Under the pieces are notes generated by a model. It was not told the origin of the DNA. It saw only the letters and a list, made by a program, of their open reading frames with translations, and did no database searches. A stretch of DNA of 64,000 bases from Fulvivirga sp. GTDB lineage: Bacteria > Bacteroidota > Bacteroidia > Cytophagales > Cyclobacteriaceae. Positions within the stretch are counted from its first letter, which is position 1; each line of letters starts with the position of its first letter. This document shows positions 44,371 through 59,639 of this stretch, piece after piece. A program made the position numbers and the translations under genes. The DNA lies in NCBI GenBank assembly GCA_028280565.1, contig JANQLQ010000198.1:1-64000 (forward strand), in the 5' to 3' direction.

Positions 44371-44388
44371 TGATTTAAGATTATTCCT

Positions 44389-45639
44389 ATGAGAAAATAT
44401 ATAAATAAGATTTTTGGAAGCGTACTACTGCTTCTTTTAGTAGCCTGTTCCGAAGAATTGATCGTGGATGAGGTGATTGACAATGTTTCAAGCGGGGCCG
44501 TCCTGAGAAATTTGGGCGAGGACAATGACTTGGACATTGCTAACCTCAACTCAACTTACACGATCTTATTGGAAGCTCAAGATGCATCTAACGGCAATCT
44601 CTTATCGGAGGTAAGAGTTAACGTAGGCTATACCGATAGCATGGAGGTGAATATTGATACAGTCACCGTGACCCGTTTCAGGGTCATCCCGGCTAATGAA
44701 TTCAACGAGACCAGCCCGACTACCAATGGGTTGCCTGTGACGCGTTTCACCACTACCCTGCAAGAGCTGTTGGATCATGTCGGGATCTCTTCAGCGGATA
44801 TGGAAGTGGGGGATCGTTTCGCCATTGACTTTGAAATGGAACTCATTGATGGCAGGGTTTTCAACCTGGACAATGCCACAAACGATGTGACCCGGACGGG
44901 CTTTTTCTCCTTTTTCAATGCCCAGTTCAGGTATGGGGCGGCTATAGGAGATCCCCAGCGCTTGGTACTTGATGAAATTAGTATTTCCGATGATAATGAG
45001 CTTGGTATTTTGAGTCTCGGGGATGTCGATACCGTCTTCTTGGAGTTTGACCGGGAAGATGCCTTTGTCGTTAACCCCACGATCACCCAGGTTTCCTCCA
45101 TCGGCGCCGTTGATGGGGACATAGGTGATTTGACCCAATCCGAAGACGATCCCGAGATTTACTATTTCTTGTATACTGCCGGGGCCTCGGGGGCTGATAC
45201 GATCAGCTTCGAGATCAGTGGTGCTGAGACTGTCGCTGGTTTTGTGATGGAAGCCCAAACTTTGAAAAGTGCTTACATCATCGATAATACCGCTCCTGCC
45301 GGCATGGTAGGGCCTACCCAGGTTTCTACCGATGCTAGCCGGAGGATATCAAATGTTTCCATTGATCTCCTTTTTGAGCCGCTAGGTACGGATACCGTTA
45401 CCTTCGAGATCGAGGCTGTAGCTCCTTTCTTTGATACTCAAACCCTCACGAGGGTGATCAGCCAAGATGATGAGGTAGTAAATTTGGAATTTGTACCCCA
45501 GGTAGATGGTGTGGCAATCGGTGAAGGTGCACTAGAATTCAACATCACTACTGACGTAGGAGTTATGCAAGGCGCTGGAATTATCGACCTGATCGGTAAC
45601 GAAGCCAGTGAGGTCATTAATGTACAACTTGGCAATTAG
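44389..45639 (+). CDS. Surface lipoprotein of SusCD locus 2 (unknown)
   Basis: A 416-aa lipoprotein with Cys20 (LLLVAC). The mature part is beta-rich and very acidic (GEDNDLDIANLNSTY; DLTQSEDDPEIYYFLY), with tandem Ig-like modules. No known domain was recognised. It is co-transcribed behind SusD 2 (18 bases) and ends at a clear terminator. Likely a surface ligand-binding partner of the SusCD pair. Confidence 0.78.
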   Translation: MRKYINKIFGSVLLLLLVACSEELIVDEVIDNVSSGAVLRNLGEDNDLDIANLNSTYTILLEAQDASNGNLLSEVRVNVGYTDSMEVNIDTVTVTRFRVIPANEFNETSPTTNGLPVTRFTTTLQELLDHVGISSADMEVGDRFAIDFEMELIDGRVFNLDNATNDVTRTGFFSFFNAQFRYGAAIGDPQRLVLDEISISDDNELGILSLGDVDTVFLEFDREDAFVVNPTITQVSSIGAVDGDIGDLTQSEDDPEIYYFLYTAGASGADTISFEISGAETVAGFVMEAQTLKSAYIIDNTAPAGMVGPTQVSTDASRRISNVSIDLLFEPLGTDTVTFEIEAVAPFFDTQTLTRVISQDDEVVNLEFVPQVDGVAIGEGALEFNITTDVGVMQGAGIIDLIGNEASEVINVQLGN

Positions 45640-45702: not shown

Positions 45703-45735
45703 AAACCGCCACTCGAGAGTGGCGGTTTTATTTTT
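45703..45735 (+). terminator. Terminator of SusCD locus 2
   Basis: AAACCGCCACT/AGTGGCGGTTT around CGAG, followed by TATTTTTG. The stem is perfect and lies between converging transcripts; the U-tract favours the plus strand, but the hairpin may also close the minus-strand operon. Confidence 0.88.
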
Positions 45736-45749
45736 GTCTTCTTTCGAGA

Positions 45750-46823
45750 TCAACGGGTCTTTTTAGTGACCCCAAGCCCGCTTTGGGAGCCTACACTCAT
45801 CCATCCATCCTTGATCTCGAAACCACCGGTTACTACATCCTCCAGCAGGTCCAGGCTGCCATCAAGGTCAAGGTACTTAGTGTTGGTAAACCCTAAGGCA
45901 GTGTGTAGAGCAGCACTGATGCTGATAGCGCTCTCGTCATTGCAACCCCACATGAGCTCTGTACCGGATGCCTGGGCAATAGATGCAATTTGACGCCCGG
46001 GGTGAATGCCCCCGGATTTCATCAGTTTAATGTTAAATATACCACTGGCCGCTGGAGGGGAGGCGAGCCGGAAGGCATCTTTTGAAGAAATGAGGCTTTC
46101 ATCGGCGGCTATGATCTGTTTTATGTCGTCAGGTTGTGCTTTTAGTTGTTCTACCGAAGCAGCGGGAAGTGGCTGTTCGATCAACTCGATATTATCATTA
46201 CGGGTGGTATAAAAAAAATGGGACAATGCTGCCGGGTCGTAGCCTTGGTTAGCATCCACACGTATAGTAAACTCTTTCCCATAGGTTTCACGTAGCTTTT
46301 TCATACGTTCTATATCTTCGTCAACATTGCTGCCCGTTTTCACCTTTAGCACTCTAAACCCCATATCGTAATATTCCTTAGCTTCTTCCAGGGTTTCTGC
46401 TACATTTTTGATCCCGATGGTAACGGAGGTGGGTAAAGACTTGATCTTTTGGCCTAAGAATAAGGCTAAGGGTACTCCCAAGTATTGTGAAAATGCATCG
46501 TGGATGGCAATATCCAGGGCGGCCCGGGCCGCAGGGTTTTTGGGGAACCGAGCTTGGATCTCTTCCAAAAGGGTATAAAAATGACGAATATCTCGACCGA
46601 TCATAAAATCCAAGTCACCCTCTTGAAGTACTGTCATTGTAGAGTCTAAGGATTCGCCCACCACATATTCACTGGGGTTGCCTGATCCAAAACCGGTGAT
46701 GCCGTTCTCCAGCTCTAGTTCTACAAATGCATTGTTGACCTCATCCACCGTCTTAAAAGCGATCGTGTAGGGCCGCGCGTTGCTGAGGTCTTTTTTATAA
46801 ACATTAAGGTGTTTTATCTTCAT
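45750..46823 (-). CDS. Dipeptide epimerase (enolase superfamily)
   Basis: A 357-aa muconate-lactonizing-type enolase superfamily enzyme. Active-site set: K-x-K in LKVKTG (about residue 160), metal ligands in RVDANQGY, ELIEQPL and AADESL, and the second-face Lys in FNIKLMKSGG. Near the C-terminus DLDG gives the DxD motif that holds the peptide ammonium group in L-Ala-D/L-Glu epimerases. It would turn L-Ala-D-Glu from peptidoglycan into L-Ala-L-Glu. An alternative is the N-acetyl-glutamate racemase DgcA, since its neighbour is DUF1611 (DgcN-like). It is the last gene of the muropeptide operon, 69 bases after DUF1611. Confidence 0.88.
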   Translation of the reverse strand: MKIKHLNVYKKDLSNARPYTIAFKTVDEVNNAFVELELENGITGFGSGNPSEYVVGESLDSTMTVLQEGDLDFMIGRDIRHFYTLLEEIQARFPKNPAARAALDIAIHDAFSQYLGVPLALFLGQKIKSLPTSVTIGIKNVAETLEEAKEYYDMGFRVLKVKTGSNVDEDIERMKKLRETYGKEFTIRVDANQGYDPAALSHFFYTTRNDNIELIEQPLPAASVEQLKAQPDDIKQIIAADESLISSKDAFRLASPPAASGIFNIKLMKSGGIHPGRQIASIAQASGTELMWGCNDESAISISAALHTALGFTNTKYLDLDGSLDLLEDVVTGGFEIKDGWMSVGSQSGLGVTKKTR

Positions 46824-46892
46824 ATTTTTGTTACGATTTCAGTTTCATTTACCTAGGGGTGTGAATCAATAAAGCACAATAAGAGGGTGGAA

Positions 46893-47999
46893 TTATGACC
46901 AGTTTTCAATTTTTATATCCTGTACCATTGTTTTTACAATCTCCATGCAGGCGCCCATTCCTTCCTCCAAAGGCAATACCACGGGTATGCCACATTCATC
47001 TTCTATCCTTTTTTTAGCGGCGATGGCCTCGGTATCCGTGAGATCTTCCGTGTTCAGTGTTATGCAGATAGTAGGTGCTCCTAGCTGCCTGATGAGCTCA
47101 ATTTCATCTTTGACCGGGGGAATAGGTTTCCCATAGCTTTCCAGCCCGTTAAAATATTGCCTGGCGGGGGCATGTTGGAGAACCACCCCATCTAGCTCAC
47201 CGGAAATGATGTACTCTGATCCGCAAGGGCCGCTAGGGTTTCTCAAGGAAGACTGCCCTTCCATAACGATCACATTCGGATTTTCTTCGACCCAACATTG
47301 GTATACGGCATGCTCCAATTCCCCGGAGATAAAATCATTGGGTGTGGCATCGAAAATAAATCCATATTTAGTGCCTTGCAGCCACCCCGTTTGCCCTGTG
47401 TAGATCATGTGGGTATTGATGCCGGCGCTATTGAGATCGTTGACCAGGAATTTCGTGGTGGTACGTTTTCCGAGGGCACAATCCGTGCCTAACACCCCTA
47501 GTTTTATTGCTTTTACCTCTTTGATCTTACCTGTCCAAAAGTGCAGGTCATTAAAACCCTTTGGCTTACGTACATCGATGATCCGGGCACTACTTTCATG
47601 GGCTATAGATGCAAATTCTTGGATATCGCCAATGGTTTGATGCAAACCGTTGACAAGATTAATTCCAATCTCCAAGGCATGCTTGACCAGCGGGTAAAGC
47701 TCCTTGGGCAGTACTCCTCCTTTTGTGGCCATCCCTATGATGGCGTATTCTGGCTTTTTACCCGAAGATTGGATCAATTCATCCAACTTAGCCACCACGG
47801 GGATGTTCCTGTGCCTTCCATCCAGCACTTCGCCGGCATCCTTGCCTGCCGAAACATGGTCGATGATCCCAACGATCTTAAAACGATCCGATTGCCGTAT
47901 AAGACCATGAGCCGTTTTTGCATGGATGTCATTTAATAATCCCCCCGTAATGATACAAGCCGTGCCGCCGATTGTATCATGATTCAGTTTACTTGTCAT
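46893..47999 (-). CDS. DUF1611 family protein (DgcN-like)
   Basis: A 368-aa cytosolic protein of the DUF1611 family. The N-terminal half has a Rossmann-like part (ACIITGGLLNDIHAKTAHGL). The C-terminal half has a P-loop-like LGVLGTDCALGKRTTTKFLV near residue 175, then YTGQTGWLQGTKYG and VVLQHAPARQYF. From memory, a member named DgcN is described as an acyltransferase working with the enolase-superfamily racemase DgcA in D-glutamate breakdown. The same pairing occurs here. It overlaps the serine hydrolase by 11 bases. The exact reaction here is inferred, not shown. Confidence 0.85.
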   Translation of the reverse strand: MTSKLNHDTIGGTACIITGGLLNDIHAKTAHGLIRQSDRFKIVGIIDHVSAGKDAGEVLDGRHRNIPVVAKLDELIQSSGKKPEYAIIGMATKGGVLPKELYPLVKHALEIGINLVNGLHQTIGDIQEFASIAHESSARIIDVRKPKGFNDLHFWTGKIKEVKAIKLGVLGTDCALGKRTTTKFLVNDLNSAGINTHMIYTGQTGWLQGTKYGFIFDATPNDFISGELEHAVYQCWVEENPNVIVMEGQSSLRNPSGPCGSEYIISGELDGVVLQHAPARQYFNGLESYGKPIPPVKDEIELIRQLGAPTICITLNTEDLTDTEAIAAKKRIEDECGIPVVLPLEEGMGACMEIVKTMVQDIKIENWS

Positions 48000-49224
48000 A
48001 ATCGAGTTTAAATCTTGTTAGGTCAGCAATAGTTGACCTGGTCCTGGTCAATTCATAATTGTATAGCGTTTGGCCCAACTCCTTCATGAAAGGGTAGCCG
48101 ATGGTTTTGTATTCATAGCCGCCGTCATTGTACGTTTCATTCTCGTTAACATGGATGACAGCAGATAAAAAGAACTCTATGTTGTTTTCAAGGTCGATGA
48201 TATACGCATTGTCGATCAAATACCCGTAAGCCTGCCCGATCTTATTGAAGATCCTTATAGGACTGGGAATGTCTCGATCTTCTCCAAACATTAAATATTT
48301 ACAGTAAGCGTCGTAATATTCTGGCAAACTGTAGGTAGGGTAAGTGGTTTCCCTTGGGAGCTGGGACATGTATTGATATACAAGCGCATAATCTTGCGGA
48401 CCTAAGTTAAACATAGGACTTTCACTGGGAAAGATCACATCCCGTAACATTCGCTGCATTTCGGCTAATGGCATAAAATTTTTGTAGGTAAAATCAAACG
48501 GGGCTTCCACCAGGCTATCTTGGGTGTTGATATGGGCTTTTCCTTTTAAAATTTGCTCTTTCGGTGGGTAGCTTGCCATACTTTTTACAAGCGGTTGGGA
48601 ATAGACCAGCGAATCACCGTCGTAAAATCGCACAGGATTTGTGTGCTGGTTTTCCTCTATGGAAAGAGGAATGGAAAGGCGGTGGATGATCCGGGAATGG
48701 GTAAAACCTTTATCCCGGAGCTTTTGATGAATATATTCTTGGCCGAGAAATTCATAAAGACGATTGTAGGCATCATTATCACTCACCACGAAGATCTTCT
48801 TAATGTATTGAGCTACACTTGGCAGCCCATTTTGAGCCGTAGTGTCTTCTAAAACCGGTGTTTGGCCGGTATAGGCGCTATCCGTAAAGAAAGTCGAGTT
48901 CATATCTAATCCCTCGATCCCGAGCTCGTTCAGTTTTTCCAGTGCCAATAGCGCTATAGGCATTTTGACCGTGCTGGCCGGGTAAAAATACCGGGTGCTA
49001 TCTGCATTGAAATAGAACGAACTAAAATGAGGATGATTTAAATCGTCCCGGTCTATTTTTGTGTAGATCACTTGCACTTCGTACTTGTCCAGGTCGGCAA
49101 GGATCTCTTGGAAAGCAGGGTTCTGTTTGAGCAGGTTTTCAATGAGAAATTGATCTTCTTTCAAGGGCATTTGGCATTGCATAAAGAGGAGGAAGACAAT
49201 GATGACGTTAATAGATCTTTTCAT
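47989..49224 (-). CDS. Class-A beta-lactamase-like serine hydrolase
   Basis: A 411-aa exported protein. The N-terminus is a signal peptide (INVIIVFLLFMQC), possibly a lipoprotein with an unusual box. Motifs: PASTVKMP (nucleophile Ser, S-x-x-K), VSDNDAYNRLYEFLG (SDN loop) and FNKIGQAYG in the place of KTG. The beta-lactamase2 fold is clear, but the KTG is altered (KIG) and the protein is far longer than class A lactamases, so it may be a peptidase acting on D-amino-acid peptides. Its stop overlaps DUF1611 and its ATG overlaps the amidase stop (ATGA). In context it probably trims peptidoglycan peptides in the periplasm. Confidence 0.83.
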   Translation of the reverse strand: MKRSINVIIVFLLFMQCQMPLKEDQFLIENLLKQNPAFQEILADLDKYEVQVIYTKIDRDDLNHPHFSSFYFNADSTRYFYPASTVKMPIALLALEKLNELGIEGLDMNSTFFTDSAYTGQTPVLEDTTAQNGLPSVAQYIKKIFVVSDNDAYNRLYEFLGQEYIHQKLRDKGFTHSRIIHRLSIPLSIEENQHTNPVRFYDGDSLVYSQPLVKSMASYPPKEQILKGKAHINTQDSLVEAPFDFTYKNFMPLAEMQRMLRDVIFPSESPMFNLGPQDYALVYQYMSQLPRETTYPTYSLPEYYDAYCKYLMFGEDRDIPSPIRIFNKIGQAYGYLIDNAYIIDLENNIEFFLSAVIHVNENETYNDGGYEYKTIGYPFMKELGQTLYNYELTRTRSTIADLTRFKLDYDK

Positions 49225-49889
49225 TTTTCAAGGCCCGGCGCGGGTTTAAGTGGATGATCGATGGACTGGTGAAGTTTACGGATAAACCCCGGGCCGACGT
49301 CGCTCTTTTCGGTCAAGTAATCCGGGTCCGTTTCTTTCCATAATGGGTGACCTATAAACTGCTGGTATTGGTCATGGCCTATTAAGTACTCGATATTGTA
49401 TTTCTCAGCGAGGTAGTTAACAAGCTTTAAATTTGCCAGGAACTGTCGTTTGGTAAGAGGGAGTTCCGCACCGTTGGCTACATTTTCAATGCCTATCGCG
49501 CAGTGATTAAGACCTATTACATGCCGGGCAAAGGTGGTTTCCGGCAAAAGCCGGTATACCGTGCCATCCCTGTCTACTAAGAAATGTGCAGATACATTCA
49601 AGCTGCTGGCGTTACTGATCCCGGGACGAGTATTGGGCAAACGCGTGGGATTAAAAGCTTCGAATGACTTTTCCAAGGTAGGGATCACGGTCCAGTGTAT
49701 TACGATGATCTTAGGGTCAATTTCTACGGATCCGGTCTCTATCCCGTGTCGCGTTTTCAAGTACTCAAGGGAAAGTTTCTCCCGGTCCTGGTCAAAGATG
49801 ATGGGTTTATCTATAATGTTTAGTTTTCCATGGCAGGCGGTGGCAAGCATGCAGGCCAATGGAAGGATTATGTTGAGTATCTTAATCAT
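49221..49889 (-). CDS. N-acetylmuramoyl-L-alanine amidase lipoprotein (AmpD/PGRP fold)
   Basis: A 222-aa lipoprotein (Cys19 in LATAC) with an amidase_2 domain. Zinc and catalytic residues are suggested by KIIVIHWTVIP (first His), AIGIENVAN (Glu), and YLIGHDQYQQFIG with the later TDPDY (second His and third ligand). It cleaves the lactyl-Ala bond of muropeptides or peptidoglycan, releasing free stem peptide. It overlaps the LD-carboxypeptidase gene by 8 bases and the hydrolase gene by 4, so it sits at the core of a coupled cassette. Periplasmic placement, unlike cytosolic AmpD, fits use of external or shed murein. Confidence 0.88.
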   Translation of the reverse strand: MIKILNIILPLACMLATACHGKLNIIDKPIIFDQDREKLSLEYLKTRHGIETGSVEIDPKIIVIHWTVIPTLEKSFEAFNPTRLPNTRPGISNASSLNVSAHFLVDRDGTVYRLLPETTFARHVIGLNHCAIGIENVANGAELPLTKRQFLANLKLVNYLAEKYNIEYLIGHDQYQQFIGHPLWKETDPDYLTEKSDVGPGFIRKLHQSIDHPLKPAPGLEK

Positions 49890-50946
49890 GTAAAGCTCGT
49901 TCTAGCAGTTGGAATGTTCCCTTATCTGCGTCCATTTCGGCCTCTGTACCTACAGGTAAGGTAAATTTAGAATCGATATGGCCTATCATAGAACCACTAA
50001 AAGCAGGTATTTTGAGCGGTTTTATGTAATGATCTATAATTTCATCAAAAGTAAGAGAACCATAACCTCCCCCCGGCAAACAACGGGTGCATTTGCCAAA
50101 GATGAACCCGTTTATCTCGTCCAAGAGGCCGGAGAGTTGTAGTTGCGACATCAGCCGGTCTATACGGTACAACTCTTCATTTACGTCTTCCAGGAACAAC
50201 AGGCTTCCTTTGAAACTGGGTAAGTACGCTGACCCCATCAGTCCGCACAGGACCGACAGGTTGCCTCCAAGTAGTCTTCCACGGGCTTTTCCCGGGTGAA
50301 TGGTCCGGGTGCGGTTTTCGGTCTGTACCCACTCTGATTCTTGTTTTGGGGGGTTTTTGAAACTCATCAGTTGGTTGTTAAAAAGGAGGTTGGAGAAATA
50401 ACGAAGAGAAAACTTTCCCCACGAAGATATACCGACCGGCCCATGAAAAGTAACAATACCAGCCTTTTTGTATAAAGCCAATTGCAAGGCGGTAATATCA
50501 CTGTAGCCAATAAAAACCTTTGGGTTTTTTCGGATCATCTTATAGTCGAGCTTGTCCAGGATGCGAGCTGCGCCAAAGCCGCCTCTTAAGCAAATGATGG
50601 CATGGACGTTGCGATCGCTAAACATCTTATTCAACTCCCGGGCCCGGTCATCGTCTTCACCTGCCAAATGGCCATACCGGTCTTTTAAGTGCTTTCCTAA
50701 TTTTACTTGCAGGCCCATAGCTTCTAGTGCTTCCTTAGCCACTTCGTAAGGCTCTGATTCATAAACCGCCCCGGCAGGACTTATAAGTCCAATGACATCG
50801 CCGGGGCGGAGTTTTTGAGGCTTGAGGACCTGGGGATCGCTTGGGGTCAGTTTTGAATGTAGATGCCCTGTGTCTCCTGCGATCAACGGCATCATAATGG
50901 TCCCTGTTGAAAGCTGGTGGAGGAATTTGCGCCTAGGAACATCCAT
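49882..50946 (-). CDS. LD-carboxypeptidase (S66 family), Tat-like signal
   Basis: An S66 peptidase that removes the terminal D-Ala from L,D-linked tetrapeptides to give tripeptides. The nucleophile Ser is in VFIGYSDITAL; the catalytic Glu is near FLEDVNEELYRIDR and the His in MIGHIDSKFTLPVG. GLISPAGAVYESEPYEVAKE and CLRGGFGAARILD are family signatures. The start at 50946 gives MDVPRRKFLHQLSTG, a twin-arginine-like export signal (an earlier ATG at 50985 exists). E. coli LdcA is cytosolic; export here places the reaction in the periplasm. Confidence 0.88.
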   Translation of the reverse strand: MDVPRRKFLHQLSTGTIMMPLIAGDTGHLHSKLTPSDPQVLKPQKLRPGDVIGLISPAGAVYESEPYEVAKEALEAMGLQVKLGKHLKDRYGHLAGEDDDRARELNKMFSDRNVHAIICLRGGFGAARILDKLDYKMIRKNPKVFIGYSDITALQLALYKKAGIVTFHGPVGISSWGKFSLRYFSNLLFNNQLMSFKNPPKQESEWVQTENRTRTIHPGKARGRLLGGNLSVLCGLMGSAYLPSFKGSLLFLEDVNEELYRIDRLMSQLQLSGLLDEINGFIFGKCTRCLPGGGYGSLTFDEIIDHYIKPLKIPAFSGSMIGHIDSKFTLPVGTEAEMDADKGTFQLLERALHD

Positions 50947-51000
50947 GTTAGTGAATTTTCTCTTCAAAAGTCTGCTGTGGTTCACACCCGGGTAACTTGT

Positions 51001-52167
51001 TTACAAGCCTTTGACCTCGAACAGGACTTCGGCTGATGTTTCGGTAATGGTGAGATCCGTCACCTCGAATATCGTATACTCCTCGCTATCTCTTAACTTG
51101 GCCACGAATACATCTCCCACCTGTGTTATTTCGATCTGCGAGGTGGGCTCCCCATTTTCGTAGGCAAGGATGATCGTATTTAAATTAGCCTCATTAAATA
51201 GGCTGGAACTGCTTTCTACGAATCCCGTGCCATTGTTTGCTTCAAGGGAAATAATATTCCCTTCAAAAGCCGTAATACGCAAATCTTTTGCAGGTGCGGG
51301 TCCTGCTGTAGGTACATTGGTAAAATTGACCATGTCATAGGCGATCGTATCTGTTTCGTTAGCAGAAATGGTGCCGGCAACATTGGTATTTAGCGGTGTG
51401 GGTGATACCACAGTTTCAGCGGTAGCGGTAACTTCAGCTATGCCCGCTTTTGTGGATTCCACTTCAAACCGGAATACTACGTCTTCTCCCTCTGAATTGG
51501 GAGGAATGGTCACTGCGAATTCTGTTGTATCCCTCCTGCCAGGAAGAAAAATAGTATCTGCGGCTACCTCTGCCCCGCCATCGATAGAGTAATACGATCT
51601 GACTTCTGCCAAGTCACGATATAAAACAGCGGTATTTTCATTGATACCCAGCTCATAAGTGACTTGCTCTCCTTCGATAATATCTCCAAAGGGCAGATCA
51701 TTTTCTAACGATATGATCCGTACAACTGGTTCATCTTCCAGCACTTGGATCTCTTCTGTGCGCGTATTAGAGAGCTCGTTAGCCGTGATAATTTCGGCCT
51801 CTAATTGTACGCGCCTGCCATTGGCTTCCGCAGGTACTTGGTAGGTGAAGGTTTCCACCTGCGAGTCAGCCGTATTAAAGTTACTGATCTCACGATTTTC
51901 AATTAATACAGGTGCTTCTCCATCAATGGAGGCTCGTAGTACCAAGGCACTTACTGGCTCCCTTTCGGAAAAAAAGGTGAGGTCCATCGTGATGGTTTCG
52001 CCTTGGGAGGGGGAAGCGTCGGAAATATTGAAAACCGATATGGTCCCTACGCCGCCTACCACGTCAAATTCTTCCTCTTGCTCGTCCAGGCAAGCGCTTA
52101 AACAGGCCAGTAGGACCAGGACCATGAAGCTTAATCTATAGTTTTTATATAAATTCATAGTGTTCAA
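51001..52167 (-). CDS. Surface lipoprotein of SusCD locus 3 (unknown)
   Basis: A 388-aa lipoprotein (Cys26, LACLSAC). The mature part is acidic and beta-rich: VGGVGTISVFNISDASPSQG, then repeated Ig-like modules (FTYQVPAEANGRRVQLEAEI; FAVTIPPNSEGEDVVFRFEV) and a final domain of about 110 residues. No family recognised. It lies between SusD 3 and the LD-carboxypeptidase in the same operon, so it probably binds the substrate at the cell surface. Confidence 0.78.
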   Translation of the reverse strand: MNTMNLYKNYRLSFMVLVLLACLSACLDEQEEEFDVVGGVGTISVFNISDASPSQGETITMDLTFFSEREPVSALVLRASIDGEAPVLIENREISNFNTADSQVETFTYQVPAEANGRRVQLEAEIITANELSNTRTEEIQVLEDEPVVRIISLENDLPFGDIIEGEQVTYELGINENTAVLYRDLAEVRSYYSIDGGAEVAADTIFLPGRRDTTEFAVTIPPNSEGEDVVFRFEVESTKAGIAEVTATAETVVSPTPLNTNVAGTISANETDTIAYDMVNFTNVPTAGPAPAKDLRITAFEGNIISLEANNGTGFVESSSSLFNEANLNTIILAYENGEPTSQIEITQVGDVFVAKLRDSEEYTIFEVTDLTITETSAEVLFEVKGL

Positions 52168-52184
52168 AATTTTTATACTTGCAA

Positions 52185-53648
52185 TTACCTATCCCAAAAC
52201 ACCTTGTCCGTATTTACGGCAGGGGGCACATTGGAAGAATTGTTTATAATCTCACTTTGCGGATACAAAAATCTCCTAGGAAACACACCTCCTGTTTCAT
52301 TAGTGGCTGAAGGGGCAAGGTTAGGAATACCACTTACTGTCCCGTCAGCGCCTGCAGGAATACTTCTTCTCCAATCTACCCAAGCTTCCGGCTCTAAGAA
52401 TAAGGCTATATGCTTTTCGGTAAAGATCTTTTCCAGCCCGTTTACCTGGATAGATGCCGCGTCTTCACTAGCGTATTGTGCTTCATAAACGGGATTAGCC
52501 TCGCCGGTAACACGGAGGATTGATGATTTTACGGCTTCGTTAAATGCCTCGGCGGCTTCGCCGAAATTATTAAGCCTGAAATTAGCCTCTGCTTCAATGA
52601 ATTTGACCTCAGTGTAGGTTATAATGTTCGTAGGCGCGGCCAGCCGGTTGATATAGTCTCCCACGAGGGTGACGTCAGACGGGATGTCTATTTGTCCATA
52701 AGGTACGCCGTTATATAGCCCACCTCCATTGTCTCGCAGGTAAAACTCTATTCGAGGATCGTCTACCCCCGGGGCTACTCGGTCCCGGAGCAGTTCTACA
52801 AAGGTCTGGCATACGGCGATATTGTTTTGACCAAACGTACTGGAGAGAAAACTAAACCATGGGCCGGCTTGATCCGCCCCAAAATCAATGTTGGCGTCAT
52901 CTTCATTGCCGACGAAGGTTCCGCCACGGATAGACGCTAAAGCGTCGTTGGCAGAGCCTGTCGGATCCACTTTACTCAGGTGGTTATGATACCTTGCCTT
53001 AAGCGCCCGCGCTACTTTGATCCATTTTGGAGCTGAGTTAGCGACCCAATCCGTTTGTGAACCAGCACGGTAGATGAAGTCGTTACCGGCAGGTGATATG
53101 GTACTTTCCAACTGGAGGTCGGCGATAGCCAGGTCAAGTAGTTCTTGGATCTCAACGTACAGGTCTGCCGCATCATCATAGGTGGGTTGAGGATTACCCA
53201 CTAGATCTAAGGCCGTGGAAAAGGGGGCATCGTTCCAGTTATCTACGATGTTACCCAGTGCCAGTGCTGTTAGTATCCTGGCCACCCCGCGGTAATGCGT
53301 TGCCCCGTTTTCGTTACTTTTTTCTATGATCGTTTCCAGGTCTACCAAGGCCCCTGCATAAAGGCGCTGGTTCCAAGAAAAGTCGAAAAACTCGTTTAAA
53401 AAACTGTAGTTCATCACATCCTGGAAGTCAGACAATGTGCCTGTCATCTGCTGGATTAGAATACTGGCATATTCACCGGTCTCCCCACTGGTACCGAAAA
53501 TAATATTGGTTTGTGCTGCCGGAAGAAGTATGTCCACCGTTGCATCTGTCGCATTGTTAGGATTGATATTCGTTTCTTCTAGGTTGCATGCCGCCAACAC
53601 AGTCATTACACCTCCTAACAGTAATATTTTGTAGTTAAATTTCTTCAT
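52185..53648 (-). CDS. SusD/RagB-type lipoprotein, locus 3
   Basis: A 487-aa SusD-like_2 lipoprotein, Cys21 (TVLAAC), then NLEETNINPNNATDATVDIL. Core motifs: GVARILTALALGNIVDNWND, WVANSAPKWIKVARALKARY, YTEVKFIEAEANFRLNNFGE and the tail NTDKVFWDR. It caps SusC 3 and follows it at 30 bases. It is coupled with murein-degrading enzymes downstream, which suggests peptide or muropeptide ligands. Confidence 0.93.
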   Translation of the reverse strand: MKKFNYKILLLGGVMTVLAACNLEETNINPNNATDATVDILLPAAQTNIIFGTSGETGEYASILIQQMTGTLSDFQDVMNYSFLNEFFDFSWNQRLYAGALVDLETIIEKSNENGATHYRGVARILTALALGNIVDNWNDAPFSTALDLVGNPQPTYDDAADLYVEIQELLDLAIADLQLESTISPAGNDFIYRAGSQTDWVANSAPKWIKVARALKARYHNHLSKVDPTGSANDALASIRGGTFVGNEDDANIDFGADQAGPWFSFLSSTFGQNNIAVCQTFVELLRDRVAPGVDDPRIEFYLRDNGGGLYNGVPYGQIDIPSDVTLVGDYINRLAAPTNIITYTEVKFIEAEANFRLNNFGEAAEAFNEAVKSSILRVTGEANPVYEAQYASEDAASIQVNGLEKIFTEKHIALFLEPEAWVDWRRSIPAGADGTVSGIPNLAPSATNETGGVFPRRFLYPQSEIINNSSNVPPAVNTDKVFWDR

Positions 53649-53678
53649 TGCAGGATTGCGTTTATTCTTTTCATCGAT

Positions 53679-56600
53679 TTAAAAAGACACATTGAGGGTT
53701 ACTCCATAGCTCCTAGTATTAGGAGTTGTGAAAGCGTCTATTCCCTGTGGAGGGTTAGGACTGGAAGCATTCCTGGGAGCGCCGATCCCCACAAGGTTCG
53801 TCTCTGGGTCAATCCCGGAGTACTCGGTGATAAGGATAAGGTTTCTGCCGTATATGCTGAGGTCCAGGCTCTCCAAACCGATTTTACTGATCAAAGTATT
53901 TGGCAATGAATAAGTAAGTGTGACATCTCGTAGCCTCCACCAAGAGCCATCTTCGATCCATCTCTCGGCAATGTTCCGGTTGCCAGCCGTGGACGAATAA
54001 AAGTTTTGATCAAGAAGCACTTGTTTTGTATTGGGCTGCCCGTCATCACTTTCCCCGGGATTGTCTACTACTCCCCGGAACACGACCAACTGGTTCCTAT
54101 TTTCCGAGTGGTCCGCGACACCCTGGGCATCCATCCAGTGGCCTGTGACATTTGCTACGTCGCCTCCCATGCGTATGTCCCACAAGAAGCTAAAAGAAAA
54201 ATCCTTGTACCGGAATGTGTTTCTCCAGCCTCCCAGCCAGTCGGGGTTAGGGTCGCCTATGATCTTTTGTTCAGCGGCTAGCTGGGGAAATCCAGTGGGG
54301 CTGATCAAGAGCTGCCCTTGTTCATTGCGCTTGAAAGCATTCCCATAAAACACATTGAAAGGCTCCCCGGGGATCATGGCCGACTGTAGCCGGGAAGAAA
54401 ACTGGGGAGAAATAATGCTTTCCAAGGGAAGCTCATTTACGATGTTCCTGTTACGAGTAAAGTTGAACATGACATCCCAACTGAAATCATTTATCCTAAC
54501 TGGGGTAGCGCTCAGCACCATTTCGATGCCTGTATTTTCTATTTCCCCTGAATTAATACGCTGGTTTGTAAAACCTGTAGATCCGGGTACAGCTACCGAG
54601 ATGATCTGGTTAGTAGATACGGACTGGTACCAAGTGAAATCAAGGCCGATCCGGTTATTCCAAAACCGAAGATCAGCGCCAAGTTCTATGGTGGAATTCT
54701 CTTCGGGCTCTAGCGCGTCGTTACCTGCTGTATTACTGCGTTGCGCCCCGCCGACACCGTCTACGGGAAAGACGACACCCCTGGCAAAGTCTGAAGAAAC
54801 CGGGTTGTTTTCAAAGAAGGTTTCCGTTGCATATACCGGGGCATCATTCCCTACCTGTGCAAAAGATCCTTTTAACTTACCGAACGTAAGGATGCTTTCG
54901 TCGATATCCAATACCTCGGAGAATACAAAGGCTAAGCTGGTGGCCCCGTAGAAAAAGGAATTATTTTCCACGGGCAGGGTAGAGGACCACTCATTCCTGC
55001 CGGTTAGCTCTAAGAACAGCATTCCTTTCCAGCCTATATTCATCCGGGCAAATGCCGCAGTAGTCCTTTTTCTTGTTTCATCATCAAGAGGTATTATATC
55101 TTCTTGGGTATTGTTGATATTGACGAGCCCCGGAATAGCGAAATTCCGCCCCGAGATAAATTGCCGGGTGGTATTTAGCGTGAAGTAGTTGTGGCCTAAC
55201 ATTAATGACGTAGTCCAATCTTCGCCAAACTGTTTATTGGCCGTGATAAAAAGGTCCGAGTTAAGAATGCGGTCCGTGTACGTGTCTTCGATGAGCCTGC
55301 CAGTGACGCCACTCGAAGCCCTGCTATCACCACCTTTTGACCCGGTGGCCCAGACCTGGTTCCTTTTATCCGTGGCCACATCGGTGCCCAGGCGATACAT
55401 GATATCCAGCCAAGGGAGTACTTTGTAATTTCCTTGCAAAAAACCTATTATCCTGTTTACCTCGTCGTTGTAAGGATTTTTGTTGACAGTCCAAAAAGGG
55501 TTATCCGGCCCGAAACCGAAGGGCTGGCCCGGGATGTATCGCCAATTACGTTGTTCCCCATTGGGAAATTCAAATCCCGCTGAATTTTGAAATGTCCTAG
55601 GCACCCTTAACGTACCCTGTATTACGTCGGAAAAGTTATCTCCTCTTCCAAACTTGGTGCTTTTACTCTGGACATAGGTGGCAGACCCTGTTACTTTTAT
55701 TTTGTCGCTAAGTGATGACTCACCGGTTATTTTTACGGTAGTCCTGCTAAACGCGTCATTAGGAATAATACCTTCTTGGTCTAGGTGGCCGATGGAAAAA
55801 TAATAGCTGCCTTTTTCAGTACCACTGCTCACGCTCAAGTGATTATTCCAAGTGCGCCCGGTTTGGTAAAAATCCTTCTGATTATCGTATACAGGCACCC
55901 TGGCGTCGGCTATTGCACTGGGGTCGTTCATATCTACGATAAACCCGTTCGCATTTTTGGGGTTGTCACTTGAACCATCAAATCGCAGCGTGGAAATAGG
56001 TGGACCAAAATGGCTGAAAGTGGTGCCACCACTGAATACCCCGCCATCACCTTGCGCATAGATCCCCTGTTTTGGAAAGTAGTTCAAAATATCATCAATG
56101 GAATAGCTGGTACTGTAGTTTACACGCATCTGTTTAGCGCCGGCCCGGGAGCCTCGCTTGGTAGTGATCACTATCACACCGTTGCCAGCCTGTAGGCCAT
56201 AAAGGGCGGTGGCCGATGGGCCTTTGAGCACGGTCATGGATTCAATGTCGTCAGGGTTGATATCGATGGCCCGGTTGGCATTATCTACACCAGTTCCAGT
56301 ACCGTTGCTCGTATTGTCACCCTGGCTGCTTCTAAAACTATTATTGATGGGTACACCATCCACAACAAAAAGAGGCTGATTATTTCTACCCACGGAAGCA
56401 TTACCACGAATGATGATAGAAGATGCCGCGCCGGCAGATCCGCCCTGTCGAATAACTTGAACGCCGGCGACTTTGGAGCCTATGGAATTGACCAGGTTCG
56501 TTTCACGAGCTTGTATGATCTCTTCGCCGCTTACTTCTTGTACTGCAGTGGCTAATGCCTTTTTTTCCTGCCGCAGCCCGAAAGCAGTGACTACGATCTC

Positions 56601-56909
56601 GGAGAGCTGGGTGACATCGGGTTCCATTTGAAAATCGATAATGGTACGAGCAGCTATTTCTACTTCCGCGGTCTTGTACCCAATAAACGAAAATACCAGC
56701 GTTCGAGCTTCGCCGGGTACAGTAAGGGTATAATTCCCATCTACATCAGTGACTGTACCCACTGTAGTACCTTTTATTAGCACCGACGCTCCCGGCAGCG
56801 GTTCGCCACCTACAGAGGTTACCTTTCCCCTGATCGCCTGCTGGGCAAATGCTCCAGGGGCCGCCCAAGACAGGCAAAAAAGGATTAAGCATGTAAAAAT
56901 TTTCTTCAT
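53679..56909 (-). CDS. SusC/RagA TonB-dependent importer, locus 3
   Basis: A 1076-aa SusC-family barrel, first gene of the eight-gene minus-strand operon. Signal peptide (MKKIFTCLILFCLSWAAPGA...), CarboxypepD_reg-like domain (IRGKVTSVGGEPLPGASVLI), plug region (QLSEIVVTAFGLRQEKKA; LFVVDGVPINNSF; MTVLKGPSATALYGLQAGNG) and barrel ending in RSYGVTLNVSF. Predicted to import peptidoglycan-derived or other peptides, judged from its downstream enzymes. The promoter region is shared with a divergent gene. Confidence 0.95.
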   Translation of the reverse strand: MKKIFTCLILFCLSWAAPGAFAQQAIRGKVTSVGGEPLPGASVLIKGTTVGTVTDVDGNYTLTVPGEARTLVFSFIGYKTAEVEIAARTIIDFQMEPDVTQLSEIVVTAFGLRQEKKALATAVQEVSGEEIIQARETNLVNSIGSKVAGVQVIRQGGSAGAASSIIIRGNASVGRNNQPLFVVDGVPINNSFRSSQGDNTSNGTGTGVDNANRAIDINPDDIESMTVLKGPSATALYGLQAGNGVIVITTKRGSRAGAKQMRVNYSTSYSIDDILNYFPKQGIYAQGDGGVFSGGTTFSHFGPPISTLRFDGSSDNPKNANGFIVDMNDPSAIADARVPVYDNQKDFYQTGRTWNNHLSVSSGTEKGSYYFSIGHLDQEGIIPNDAFSRTTVKITGESSLSDKIKVTGSATYVQSKSTKFGRGDNFSDVIQGTLRVPRTFQNSAGFEFPNGEQRNWRYIPGQPFGFGPDNPFWTVNKNPYNDEVNRIIGFLQGNYKVLPWLDIMYRLGTDVATDKRNQVWATGSKGGDSRASSGVTGRLIEDTYTDRILNSDLFITANKQFGEDWTTSLMLGHNYFTLNTTRQFISGRNFAIPGLVNINNTQEDIIPLDDETRKRTTAAFARMNIGWKGMLFLELTGRNEWSSTLPVENNSFFYGATSLAFVFSEVLDIDESILTFGKLKGSFAQVGNDAPVYATETFFENNPVSSDFARGVVFPVDGVGGAQRSNTAGNDALEPEENSTIELGADLRFWNNRIGLDFTWYQSVSTNQIISVAVPGSTGFTNQRINSGEIENTGIEMVLSATPVRINDFSWDVMFNFTRNRNIVNELPLESIISPQFSSRLQSAMIPGEPFNVFYGNAFKRNEQGQLLISPTGFPQLAAEQKIIGDPNPDWLGGWRNTFRYKDFSFSFLWDIRMGGDVANVTGHWMDAQGVADHSENRNQLVVFRGVVDNPGESDDGQPNTKQVLLDQNFYSSTAGNRNIAERWIEDGSWWRLRDVTLTYSLPNTLISKIGLESLDLSIYGRNLILITEYSGIDPETNLVGIGAPRNASSPNPPQGIDAFTTPNTRSYGVTLNVSF

Positions 56910-57100
56910 AAGCTTACTTTGGTTTTTAGTGGTTTACTATATTAGGTAAGTCAAAGAAAAACTAAAACGCGTCAGATCTTTTTAGTTCGAATTGTAAACA
57001 ACTCATTTGCAGCTACTTACGTTTTTTGTAATAGCGCCTAATTAGTCAGATCACCGTCAGATCTTTTTTAATAAGTTTCATAGACCGATATTATTACTGG
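56910..57100. promoter_or_regulatory. Divergent control region with GTCAGATC repeats
   Basis: Three direct copies of GTCAGATC occur at 56971, 57045 and 57056, two of them extended to GTCAGATCTTTTTW. The repeats sit between the SusC 3 start (56909, minus) and the start of the unknown gene at 57101 (plus). They are candidate operator sites. No clear TAnnTTTG was found on either strand. Confidence 0.45.
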
Positions 57101-58120
57101 ATGATACCTCGAAAAATCAAATATGCCCTGGAAAATAGCAGTCTCAATAGCATAGTAGACCAGCAAAAGTACGGGCAAGAATGGGCCGGTTACACACGGA
57201 CGGTTTACGATCGCGTAGCCAAAAAAATCAATACTAAAGTCACGAAGGAAGTGATCAACCATCCATACTTGGTAAAGGACCAATTGTTGGTAGGGCAAGA
57301 GGAGCTAGAGAACATACTTTTTAAGCAAGGACTCAAGAGTATCGATGATTTTATCGATTATTTAAAGCAACGCGACGGCCACAGTCCGCATCATTGGATC
57401 AGTGGGAAGACGTTACATTGGTATTGGAATGACGGAAATGCCAAGGATAAAAAGCTCAATGTATTGCTTACTTTCTTGGGGGTGGAAATAGATTATTGGG
57501 ATGATTGGAAGCGACCTACTACTGTAGTAGAAGCCAAAAAAGACGAAAGGCCAGCGTGGGAGAATAAGAAAGACCTGCTGAAAAGGCACTATCTTGGCTG
57601 CTATTTTAGATATTATCAAAAAACGGACGGTAGCCCGGTGCTGGTGAAGGCTCCTTTCCAGGTCAAAGAAGAGACCGACTCCAATATTGTGGCTGTCACT
57701 AAAACAGTAGGCCACTTTTATAAAAGCACTTCCTTGGCCATACGTGCAGGGGCACTGTACATAGAGTGTGAAAATATAAATTGGAATGAAAAGGAAAGCC
57801 ACGTGTACAACTTGGGTTTTGAGACACACCCGAAGCTATTGATCGGTGTGTCGAATACCTTAAATCGACGTGGCCGTGCACTGGCTATAAAAAATATGCT
57901 CGTACGACAAGAAGAACCCTTTGATTACGCCCATACAGAGGCGGTTGAGATCCCTTTTGACTCCATATTTGAAGAGCGATGTGAGGAATCCTATGCCATT
58001 GCGTTTTTCCGGAATAGTTCCGATAACCTGATCGCTACACCTTTGGCACACTCTTTTGAAGAGTTGCTTGGAGGATCATCTATGACAAAAGTAAGCAAAC
58101 CTAATCGTACCCTAGGATAG
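57101..58120 (+). CDS. Unknown protein with HTH-like N-terminal region, possible regulator
   Basis: A 339-aa soluble protein with no signal or membrane segment. About residues 85-140 (WISGKTLHWYWNDGNAKDKK followed by LNVLLTFLGVEIDYWDDW) resemble a pattern seen in Bacteroidota proteins (SkxTLxRxxG ... TLxxLAxFLGYxxWxDF) that may be a helix-turn-helix-like module. The remainder (170-330) is a mixed alpha/beta domain of unknown type (FRYYQKTDGSPVLVKAPFQV; FETHPKLLIGVSNTLNRRGR). It is divergent from the muropeptide operon across repeats, so a regulator of that operon is a reasonable guess. I do not recognise the family. Confidence 0.7.
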   Translation: MIPRKIKYALENSSLNSIVDQQKYGQEWAGYTRTVYDRVAKKINTKVTKEVINHPYLVKDQLLVGQEELENILFKQGLKSIDDFIDYLKQRDGHSPHHWISGKTLHWYWNDGNAKDKKLNVLLTFLGVEIDYWDDWKRPTTVVEAKKDERPAWENKKDLLKRHYLGCYFRYYQKTDGSPVLVKAPFQVKEETDSNIVAVTKTVGHFYKSTSLAIRAGALYIECENINWNEKESHVYNLGFETHPKLLIGVSNTLNRRGRALAIKNMLVRQEEPFDYAHTEAVEIPFDSIFEERCEESYAIAFFRNSSDNLIATPLAHSFEELLGGSSMTKVSKPNRTLG

Positions 58121-58397: not shown

Positions 58398-59639
58398 TCA
58401 ATGATGCCCTGCATATTTTTCCAGTAGTAACTCCATAAGTATCCGTGCTGAAGCTTCTCCTTTTGCCCGTACAAACTCCCTAGGTGTATCGTCTCCCACC
58501 TCGTAGGTGACAGCCTCGGCTTTGAACTCATTCAAAAACCAATTCTTTGAAACCGGTGATTGGGCCCCGCCGTCTTCTTCCGTGATCCGTTCAGTGGGAA
58601 ATTCCTCGCGTAATCTCTTGATCCAAGCCTTGACCACTCCTTTCTCATCGGGAAAGGTTTCATTATTAAAAGTATAAAGCAGGTCCTCGTGGGTGGAGTG
58701 AAAGTCCAAGCCCAGCACCACATCAAGTTTGTTAGTCTTTACCACCTGGTGCATGTACTTTTGGAACTGGTCAATTTCGGGCTGGTTGTAATATTTCCAA
58801 TCCCTATTCAGGTCTACTCCACCGGTATTATGTCTCCAATGGCCGTTGTCTACGCCGTCAGGGTTTAGCATAGGGAGCACAATTACACTGAACTTCTCCC
58901 GGAATTGTTTTGCCAGGTCGTTAGACGACACAAGTTCCTCTACGAAAGCCATCATAGCCAAATACCCGGTAACTTCGGGCGGGTGCTGACGGCTGATCAC
59001 CACCAAGAGGGGTTGTTTGGGGTTTAAAGCTATTTTGAGTGCGTTTAATTCCTTGCCTTCCCGGCTTTCGCCAATGGCCTCTTGGGTGACAAAACTTTGG
59101 CCTGCGACCTGGCCCACCCATTTTTCGTTATCCTTAAAGGTCCAAAGCTCTTGTGCAGATACCCATCGATATTTATCGTCCAATTTGAGTTTCAATATTG
59201 TGCTATCATTGTCATGTACGGTGTAGCGACCACTATCTAAAGGCTCCCAATGAACACCATCGTTGCTCCAATCAGGATAGTAACGGTGCTTTCCATCACG
59301 ATACTTCATGTGTAAATAGATCTCACGAGGTGTCGCTGACCTGATCTTGAAGGAGTACCATGGGCTCATATTGATCGGGGCATTTTCAGGATGGATGTTT
59401 ATACGATAGAGCGAGTCCGATAGCTTTTCAAAGCCGTTCATCCGCGCGCCATCATACTCGTTATTGACAGAAATGCCGTCCAGTGTAAACGTTCCCTTTT
59501 TTTGCAGATCTATTGGCTTTGTTTTGGTATTGGTTGAGCCGGGTGGATCATACGATATAGGTGCGCCTGTTTTTTTTGATGTAGAACAGGAAGTTATGAG
59601 TAATAAGAATGCACAAAATAGCGTCAAAGAGCGGGTCAT
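58398..59639 (-). CDS. M14-family zinc carboxypeptidase lipoprotein
   Basis: A 413-aa lipoprotein (Cys18, LLITSC). An N-terminal beta domain (about residues 45-165, typical of cytosolic-carboxypeptidase-like M14 members) precedes the peptidase domain. Zinc ligands: HPPE (His, Glu) in ISRQHPPEVTGY and His in LGLDFHSTHEDL. The substrate-binding MLNPDGVDNGHWRHNTGGVD ends in DLNRDW, and the catalytic Glu is in AVTYEVGDDTPR. It trims C-terminal residues from peptides at the cell surface or in the periplasm. No operon partner. Confidence 0.9.
   Translation of the reverse strand: MTRSLTLFCAFLLLITSCSTSKKTGAPISYDPPGSTNTKTKPIDLQKKGTFTLDGISVNNEYDGARMNGFEKLSDSLYRINIHPENAPINMSPWYSFKIRSATPREIYLHMKYRDGKHRYYPDWSNDGVHWEPLDSGRYTVHDNDSTILKLKLDDKYRWVSAQELWTFKDNEKWVGQVAGQSFVTQEAIGESREGKELNALKIALNPKQPLLVVISRQHPPEVTGYLAMMAFVEELVSSNDLAKQFREKFSVIVLPMLNPDGVDNGHWRHNTGGVDLNRDWKYYNQPEIDQFQKYMHQVVKTNKLDVVLGLDFHSTHEDLLYTFNNETFPDEKGVVKAWIKRLREEFPTERITEEDGGAQSPVSKNWFLNEFKAEAVTYEVGDDTPREFVRAKGEASARILMELLLEKYAGHH

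Follow-up and report, generated by a model that had tools for sequence, protein, structure and literature searches.

SusCD systems are mostly assigned to glycans, with some assigned to peptides and vitamins; RagAB is a SusCD system for peptides. The subject of this analysis is an eight-gene SusCD operon of Fulvivirga sp. (assembly GCA_028280565.1, a 9.05 Mb draft in 337 contigs), located on the minus strand between positions 45750 and 56909 of a 64-kb stretch of contig JANQLQ010000198.1, hereafter the window. The locus probably imports and dismantles murein stem peptides released by other cells. As in RagAB, its SusCD pair would take up peptides, the predicted ligand here being a D-amino-acid-containing murein peptide.

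The closest described enzyme systems are those of Escherichia coli (MpaA/YcjG/PepD) and Bacillus subtilis (YkfABC). According to the relevant parts of PMC2954226, they carry out the same murein-peptide chemistry, with an LD-carboxypeptidase (YkfA), an enzyme cleaving gamma-D-Glu-diaminopimelate and an L-Ala-D/L-Glu epimerase in series, and the predicted enzymes of the window would form a similar series. The same parts report that B. subtilis ykfABC(D) adjoins the dipeptide transporter genes dppB-E, whereas the window locus has no inner-membrane transporter gene. They further describe ykfB-ykfC of Bacillus cereus and Bacteroides thetaiotaomicron as an epimerase beside a wall peptidase, extracellular breakdown followed by dipeptide import being proposed for B. 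cereus. In a Bacteroides finegoldii record, a C40 peptidase gene adjoins the dipeptide epimerase gene, and the incomplete gene table lists no SusC or SusD within ~5.8 kb of the latter. In contrast to the Ykf and MpaA-YcjG systems, the window locus combines SusCD uptake, export signals on its hydrolases, an added amidase and a class-A-fold hydrolase with an M14 peptidase of the cytosolic-carboxypeptidase-like (CCP) type and a DUF1611 protein in the core. The latter recalls the DgcN-DgcA D-glutamate pathway of Yu et al. 2023, in which, as reported in passages of PMC12363236 and PMC10845958, a DUF1611-family protein also stands next to an enolase-superfamily racemase. The window proteins differ in falling far under both model cut-offs and in being accompanied by peptide-processing and SusCD genes.

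Gene content and proposed pathway

The operon encodes, from its proximal end, SusC, SusD, a third lipoprotein, an S66-family peptidase, an Amidase_2 lipoprotein, a serine hydrolase, a DUF1611 protein and an enolase-superfamily enzyme. A sequence-only reading of the window had listed these eight genes; its coordinates, gaps and overlaps were identical upon recomputation, and its families were borne out by Pfam and NCBIfam, the third lipoprotein having none. SusC and its adjacent SusD are confirmed (SusD scores 187.2 bits against PF12771, with a cut-off of 27, and the gap is 30 bases), and the S66 protein has both the N and C domains of Peptidase_S66. The Pfam hits of the eight genes, one of which has no hit at all, include no glycoside hydrolase or lyase, the carbohydrate-active enzymes expected of a glycan polysaccharide-utilisation locus.

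In the proposed pathway, soluble muropeptides or stem peptides would be captured at the surface by SusD and the third lipoprotein and imported by SusC. The periplasmic steps assign predicted activities to enzymes of established family. First, the Amidase_2 lipoprotein would free the peptide from N-acetylmuramic acid. The class-A-fold serine hydrolase would probably act on D-Ala-D-Ala or cross-linked ends, the S66 enzyme would take off the next D-Ala, and an M14 enzyme, encoded upstream here and fused in some relatives, would cut after D-Glu. A small D-Glu-containing product would then cross the inner membrane via a transporter, and in the cytoplasm DUF1611 and the epimerase would convert the D-Glu unit to the L-form, as L-Ala-D-Glu or as N-acylated D-Glu. 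The murein assignment is based on the gene families, their recurrence, the M14 fusion, a distant gene set at locus L249, haloarchaeal gene pairs, the neighbours of the SusCD lineage and the retention of putative catalytic residues. The sequence-only reading had arrived at a murein-peptide locus as well, and this part is supported, as the enzyme set fits and the association recurs across SusCD lineages, with M14 and at L249; its placing of the breakdown outside the cell is not. Its enzyme chain lacked a D-Glu/diamino-acid enzyme and overlooked the kinship of DUF1611 with DgcN, the exchange of SusCD and the gene divergent to SusC. The divergent gene and the M14 gene, both recurring with the cluster, lay outside its eight-gene block.

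Recurrence of the cluster in relatives

Eighty-one DUF1611 loci were mapped, namely the window and the 80 best of 562 matches, and the sample therefore leans to close relatives. Same-strand runs allowed gaps of up to 500 bases, the window is included in each count, and some loci are cut by contig ends. Some loci bear two handles (L051 = L093, L052 = L091, L055 = L096, L059 = L097, L061 = L099, L058 = L095). The epimerase gene belongs to the same-strand run of DUF1611 in 76 of the 81 loci and immediately follows it in 69. The serine hydrolase is found in 40 runs, SusC in 10 (downstream and of a different kind in L101 and L105), S66 in six and the amidase in five. The pair of DUF1611 and the enolase-family enzyme is the most constant part of the cluster. 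DUF1611 is present in 69 of 395 phylum genomes and in 121 of 295 family genomes. Leaving the window aside, 19 of the 20 best-scoring neighbourhoods in the phylum have an enolase-family gene next to it. L039 has no such gene beside DUF1611, and L050 has one of 30% on the other side.

Comparison of gene order across Cytophagales, the check proposed in the sequence-only reading, yielded the complete order SusC-SusD-lipoprotein-S66-amidase-serine hydrolase-DUF1611-epimerase in three Fulvivirga-group relatives: L091 (Fulvivirga sp. M361), L093 (Flammeovirgaceae bacterium BBD 1991-12) and L096 (F. imtechensis). Reduced orders occur in L054, L056, L057, L059, L061 and L062. The amidase is absent from L097 and L099, and both S66 and amidase from L102. 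In further congeners, L056 consists of SusCD-S66-DUF1611-epimerase and L057 of SusCD-DUF1611-epimerase, while L094 (Fulvivirga lutimaris) has the order M14-amidase-serine hydrolase-DUF1611-epimerase, with no SusCD. Being whole in three relatives and partial in others, the gene order is beyond chance. To note, L058/L095 seems to be a degraded version, in which a 92-residue SusC open reading frame and a short S66 fragment precede a fused hydrolase.

The M14 peptidase is tied to the cluster in several ways. In four of the 81 loci (L095, L096, L097, L099), the serine hydrolase continues at its C-terminus into an M14 domain, and Pfam sees both domains in L055, L059 and L061. In the window, as in L091, the M14 lipoprotein gene is located on the upstream side of SusC, immediately past the divergent gene; in L094, the M14 homologue and the amidase gene have 4 bases in common. 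Judging from these positions, the M14 enzyme may perform the D-Glu/diamino-acid step absent from the eight-gene chain. Locus L249, in a genome without a DUF1611 match, comprises M14, S66 (36%), SusCD, a lipoprotein, an epimerase (34%) and the divergent gene, and amounts to the same set, assembled from distant homologues. L248 has an S66 gene (38%) with SusCD and the divergent gene.

Amidase relatives occur in 94 of 295 family genomes. The amidase lies within ~3 kb of DUF1611 in the window genome and in the four congeners that contain its best matches (G671, G629, G648 and G617); in G450, the distance is 5 kb. As a marker of the locus it was rejected, 19 of 20 other amidase loci having no DUF1611 within ~20 kb (L088, in G450, is the exception). 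The amidase relatives of G446, G503, G510 and G579 are contained in open frames of 782-825 residues that may be fusions.

The DUF1611 protein and the epimerase

The best NCBIfam model for the enolase-superfamily enzyme is that of L-Ala-D/L-Glu epimerase (NF041118). The earlier claim that it epimerises L-Ala-D-Glu is weakened by the score, 217.6 bits for a cut-off of 500, and by the nearest solved relative, 3rit (353.5 bits), which is reported to be specific for cationic dipeptides, L-Arg-D-Lys. Dipeptide epimerase specificities were reportedly treated by Lukk et al. in 2012. Residue D296 is shared with 3rit, the equivalent being I, G and M in 1jpm, 2zad and 3r0k and depending on gap placement in 3jva; glutamate 51 of 3rit is replaced by a serine. 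The window enzyme is, on its scores and alignments, a probable dipeptide epimerase.

For the last step only, a DgcN-DgcA-type route has to be considered, in which the peptides would be fully hydrolysed, DUF1611 would N-acetylate free D-Glu and the enolase-family enzyme would racemise N-acetyl-D-Glu; the locus would still be a murein-feeding one. DgcN is the sole NCBIfam hit of DUF1611 (133.9 bits), with which it has the GTDCxxGK, TGQTG and EGQ motifs in common, and the annotated dgcN and dgcA genes are adjacent in Sphingobium, as the epimerase directly follows DUF1611 in most loci. The DxD (DLDG) motif was rejected as proof of a dipeptide substrate and is no argument for dipeptides, because DgcA carries DLDG too. 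However, both window proteins are far under the cut-offs of DgcN (480) and DgcA (400), which the Sphingobium controls pass (523.4 and 422.7 bits, respectively), and the enzyme scores higher on the L-Ala-D/L-Glu epimerase model than on that of DgcA (132.4 bits). Furthermore, no DUF1611 match exists in the genome of the SusCD locus L246, whose epimerase shows 62% identity; this favours direct epimerisation in that locus. Such a route is thus rather unlikely, while being the best placed of the alternatives. Another pairing of DUF1611 with a racemase is seen in L172, on a Phaeobacter plasmid, where DUF1611 overlaps an alanine/ornithine racemase-family gene.

The SusCD cassette

Between the window and eight other loci, SusC shares 38-44% identity and SusD 30-37%, as compared to 61-78% for the epimerase. 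In loci with alike SusCs, SusC is as conserved as the epimerase (85% and 81% for L051/L052, 76% and 75% for L056/L057). The SusD tree pairs the window protein with that of L196 (support 100/98), and this pair falls in a clade (100/100) that has 20 SusDs from other loci. The murein loci form three separate groups: L051/L052; L056/L057/L059; and L055/L061/L062 with the second SusD of L051. The tree derives from one search, which warned of long branches meeting where L051/L052 joins the window's clade. A search of 295 family genomes, scoring about five candidates per genome, returned 22 full-length relatives of the window SusD with 50-61% identity, and none in the 14 congeners searched. Identities and tree show that the SusCD cassette behaves as an interchangeable unit joined to a better conserved set of enzymes, and that of the window is, on the same evidence, from a separate lineage apparently exchanged into the locus. 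In L254/L051, two tandem SusCD sets precede the S66-amidase core; the outer set has a SusD of the L055 type and a SusC that faces the divergent gene.

Twenty of the 22 SusD-relative loci (L196-L215) were examined by BLAST clusters, with Pfam run on one member of each named cluster. They present a triad of SusC, SusD and lipoprotein genes with variable downstream genes; in 16 of the 20, the gene immediately upstream belongs to the H+-pyrophosphatase family. The N-terminal ~140 amino acids of the third lipoprotein are common to this lineage, its C-terminal part being extra. A D-amino-acid or murein enzyme is encoded downstream in eight of the 20 loci. Six have a D-Ala-D-Ala carboxypeptidase (S13), accompanied in two of them by a class A beta-lactamase-like protein and an amidohydrolase resembling D-aminoacylases; L205 has an Amidase_3 gene, and L196, the closest, a gene similar to D-amino-acid dehydrogenases (246.4 bits against a cut-off of 383).

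These neighbours bear on a broader role, the general scavenging of D-amino-acid-containing or cationic peptides with no specificity for murein. It would agree with the closeness to 3rit and the shared D296, as well as with the S9 peptidases and the dehydrogenase-like gene found near the SusCD lineage. Yet the Amidase_2, S66, NlpC/P60 and Amidase_3 neighbours belong to cell-wall families, and glutamate 51 of 3rit is not retained, making a role of this breadth improbable.

Haloarchaeal parallels

The core pair also occurs in haloarchaea, some of the occurrences being on plasmids. In Halorussus, DUF1611 and a dipeptide epimerase follow an NlpC/P60 gene. In Haloprofundus, the pair stands beside a divergent ATP-binding cassette (ABC) set of two permeases, two ATPases and a binding protein, presumably a peptide-type layout. 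The pair adjoins a D-aminoacylase in Natrinema and a second dipeptide epimerase in Haladaptatus. A Natrialba row comprises lysA, NlpC/P60, a dipeptide epimerase, a serine hydrolase and a D-aminoacylase, with dacB nearby and no DUF1611 listed. Haloarchaea are not known to make murein, and their DUF1611-epimerase core therefore most likely handles foreign wall material. By analogy, this pairing argues for scavenging.

The same observation counts against recycling of the cell's own wall fragments. The S66, amidase and epimerase families serve recycling as well, and the genome has AmpG-like (164.1 bits, cut-off 350) and Mpl (best 162.1 of 388.7) matches below cut-off, so that a periplasmic route could replace these proteins. 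Nevertheless, SusCD is an outer-membrane uptake system, DUF1611 is patchy within the family, and the core pair is present in organisms devoid of murein; own-wall recycling is more improbable still than general peptide scavenging.

Periplasmic enzymes and cellular location

The model of the serine hydrolase (predicted local distance difference test, pLDDT, 90.6) matches class A beta-lactamases, the best being precursor LRA-5, and also PBP-A; the protein is longer than the matched enzymes. Residues S84, K87, S148-D149-N150, K328 and G330 are invariant in 31 sequences, and the protein thus displays the SxxK, SDN and KxG motifs of class A beta-lactamases. The listed mutant structures LRA-5 V166E and PBP-A L158E suggest that both of these proteins lack the usual deacylation glutamate, a lack that would fit a peptidase. 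In the S66 protein, the serine of GYSD, along with a glutamate and a histidine at fitting spacing, is invariant across orthologues and presumably catalytic, as are, for the amidase, H65, H172 and D188. The S66 protein scores 193.8 bits with the LD-carboxypeptidase model PRK11253 (cut-off 378). The nearest solved structure to M14 is 4a37. An identification of M14 as MpaA was rejected, since the scores give no support: the MpaA model reaches 14.8 bits on the fused M14 domain (cut-off 157) and the window's M14 protein has no NCBIfam hit. That S66 and the class-A-like protein are self-protection genes, against microcin or beta-lactam, included by chance in a peptide SusCD operon would accord with the best S66 profile match being MccF and with the beta-lactamase fold, and is very improbable given the 24.3 bits obtained with the class A model NF033103 (cut-off 200) and the M14 fusion and gene order, which place the hydrolase with the catabolic core.

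Acidic residues following the lipid cysteine act as a surface signal in other Bacteroidetes, according to the pertinent part of PMC5080379. Counted by eye in the five positions after the cysteine, they number two or three in SusD (9/9 loci) and one to four in the third lipoprotein (8/8 loci). The window amidase, serine hydrolase and M14 have zero and their relatives none or one; the lipobox of the serine hydrolase is weak. The S66 N-terminus is of the twin-arginine type, RR-x-F being kept in 7/7, and no obvious signal peptide was seen by eye in the epimerase and DUF1611. Murein breakdown outside the cell, as first proposed, is at odds with the missing surface signals of the three lipoproteins and with the S66 N-terminus. 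The enzymes are more likely periplasmic than surface-exposed, and the best reading of these signals would be surface capture, periplasmic cutting and cytoplasmic epimerisation.

The divergent gene and the TGAC element

A gene encoding a 339-residue protein stands head-to-head with SusC in the window and in seven other distinct loci with differing SusCD lineages. Counting the window's own, 24 of the 295 family genomes have relatives, of which 18 reach E < 1e-50. Seven members gave no Pfam match at E 0.1, no PDB match reached E 0.001, and the structural model is weak (pLDDT 73, predicted template modelling score 0.45). The divergent genes of L247 and L249 adjoin a distant epimerase gene and not SusC, and those of L251-L253 are paired with other SusCD genes. 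L252 contains an amine oxidase and a class-III aminotransferase and L251 an aldehyde dehydrogenase (Pfam), possibly indicating amine-uptake SusCDs. The gene is thus not confined to murein loci, as it pairs with amine-type ones too.

A TGAC-N7-TGAC element is present in the intergenic regions of all eight head-to-head loci (L216, L218-L222, L224, L233), as compared to 0.028 loci on average, and never more than 2, in 2000 shuffles; the motif was first seen by eye and then counted in these same regions, and shared descent also conserves it. A second TGAC pair, 21 bases apart near the SusC start, occurs in six of the eight. Among ten further loci (L217, L223, L225-L232), the element lies at most 300 bases upstream of the divergent gene in seven; L227 has none, and L226 and L229 start at a contig end, which makes their upstream region unreadable. 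We infer from this arrangement a candidate regulator.

Operon layout and flanking features

The successive gaps from SusC to the epimerase are of 30, 17 and 15 bases (54 for the latter with the start at 50946), followed by overlaps of 8, 4 and 11 bases and a gap of 69 (Table 1). In a consensus scan of the block, the minus strand had a single terminator-like site, formed by a 5-pair stem inside SusC, and promoter-like sites were close to chance in number (21 versus 16.9 ± 4.5 in shuffles). The Bacteroidetes promoter consensus, with one fixed spacing, matches once in the window, with 1.27 expected by chance, and not upstream of SusC. A single transcript of the whole block is plausible from this layout. 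A perfect hairpin (Table 1) lies 22 bases past the epimerase stop, its T-run being on the plus strand. Convergent to the operon (42676-45639, plus strand), a SusD-like protein and a lipoprotein are encoded, a pair kept in L051 and L052, where a long gene follows it (FG-GAP/UnbV in L051).

Table 1. Features of the murein-peptide locus and its surroundings, in window positions
Feature	Position	Strand	Basis or remark
SusC/RagA TonB-linked outer-membrane transporter	53679..56909	-	TIGR04056 662.6 bits, cut-off 368.25
SusD-like lipoprotein, lineage other than SusDs of related murein loci	52185..53648	-	PF12771, identities, tree
Third surface lipoprotein (predicted)	51001..52167	-	no Pfam family; alignment
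S66 family (LD-carboxypeptidase/MccF), twin-arginine-type N-terminus	49882..50985	-	GTG start; later ATG at 50946
Amidase_2 lipoprotein	49221..49889	-	Pfam
Class-A-fold acyl-serine hydrolase (Beta-lactamase2)	47989..49224	-	Pfam, model, alignment
DUF1611 protein, distant DgcN relative	46893..47999	-	DUF1611_N + DUF1611_C; shared motifs
Enolase-superfamily enzyme, probable dipeptide epimerase	45750..46823	-	MR_MLE_N + MR_MLE_C
Divergent orphan gene, candidate regulator	57101..58120	+	head-to-head with SusC in related loci
M14 metallocarboxypeptidase lipoprotein	58398..59639	-	Pfam; homologue in L094
Tandem element GATCTGAC-N3-GATCTGAC (TGAC-N7-TGAC, 11-base spacing)	57045..57063	-	
Second TGAC pair, 21-base spacing, 65 and 44 bases before SusC start	56950..56974	-	
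Perfect 26-base hairpin between epimerase and convergent plus-strand gene	45703..45728	.	

Assessment and significance

Several points weigh against a murein-feeding role. The run is without SusC in 71 of the 81 DUF1611 loci. Downstream of the window's SusCD lineage, 12 of the 20 loci have no recognised D-amino-acid or murein enzyme: four carry an unrelated reductase and histidine kinase, and the other eight include one S9 peptidase and two loci (L202, L210) that reach the contig end soon after the lipoprotein. Among the enzymes, the epimerase is far under its equivalog cut-off, and the PDB matches of S66 are better with MccF than with LdcA entries. Both M14 types are nearer to CCP-like PDB entries than to MpaA, for which reason the M14 cleavage step is put forward as a prediction. 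No inner-membrane transporter is encoded among the eight genes and the genome has no POT match, the ABC type not having been searched genome-wide. Two of seven haloarchaeal records, whose gene tables are incomplete, list DUF1611 without an adjoining epimerase. Finally, the enzyme and binding specificities are predictions.

Taking these points into account, the cluster is real and conserved, and its most likely function is the uptake and breakdown of foreign murein stem peptides. A more elaborate proposal is tentative and, taken as a whole, somewhat more apt to fail than to hold: modular Cytophagales murein-peptide loci would consist of a conserved cytoplasmic core, DUF1611 and dipeptide epimerase, with periplasmic peptidases, different SusCD cassettes having been recruited several times and a divergent regulator family reading tandem TGAC operators, and the window SusCD would come from a separate D-amino-acid-peptide locus. 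The parts are of known kinds. The literature searched, in part unspecifically and with few subscription journals covered, yielded no description of their combination with SusCD in a murein-peptide locus, of the SusCD exchange or of the operator.

If the locus is indeed dedicated to murein peptides, it would identify what some unassigned SusCD pairs take up and would suggest a way in which Cytophagales feed on lysed neighbours. It would also allow the ligands of DUF1611, and of a regulator family that may be new, to be tested. Comparing loci in which one enzyme core carries exchanged SusCD cassettes offers a further route to infer SusCD ligands.

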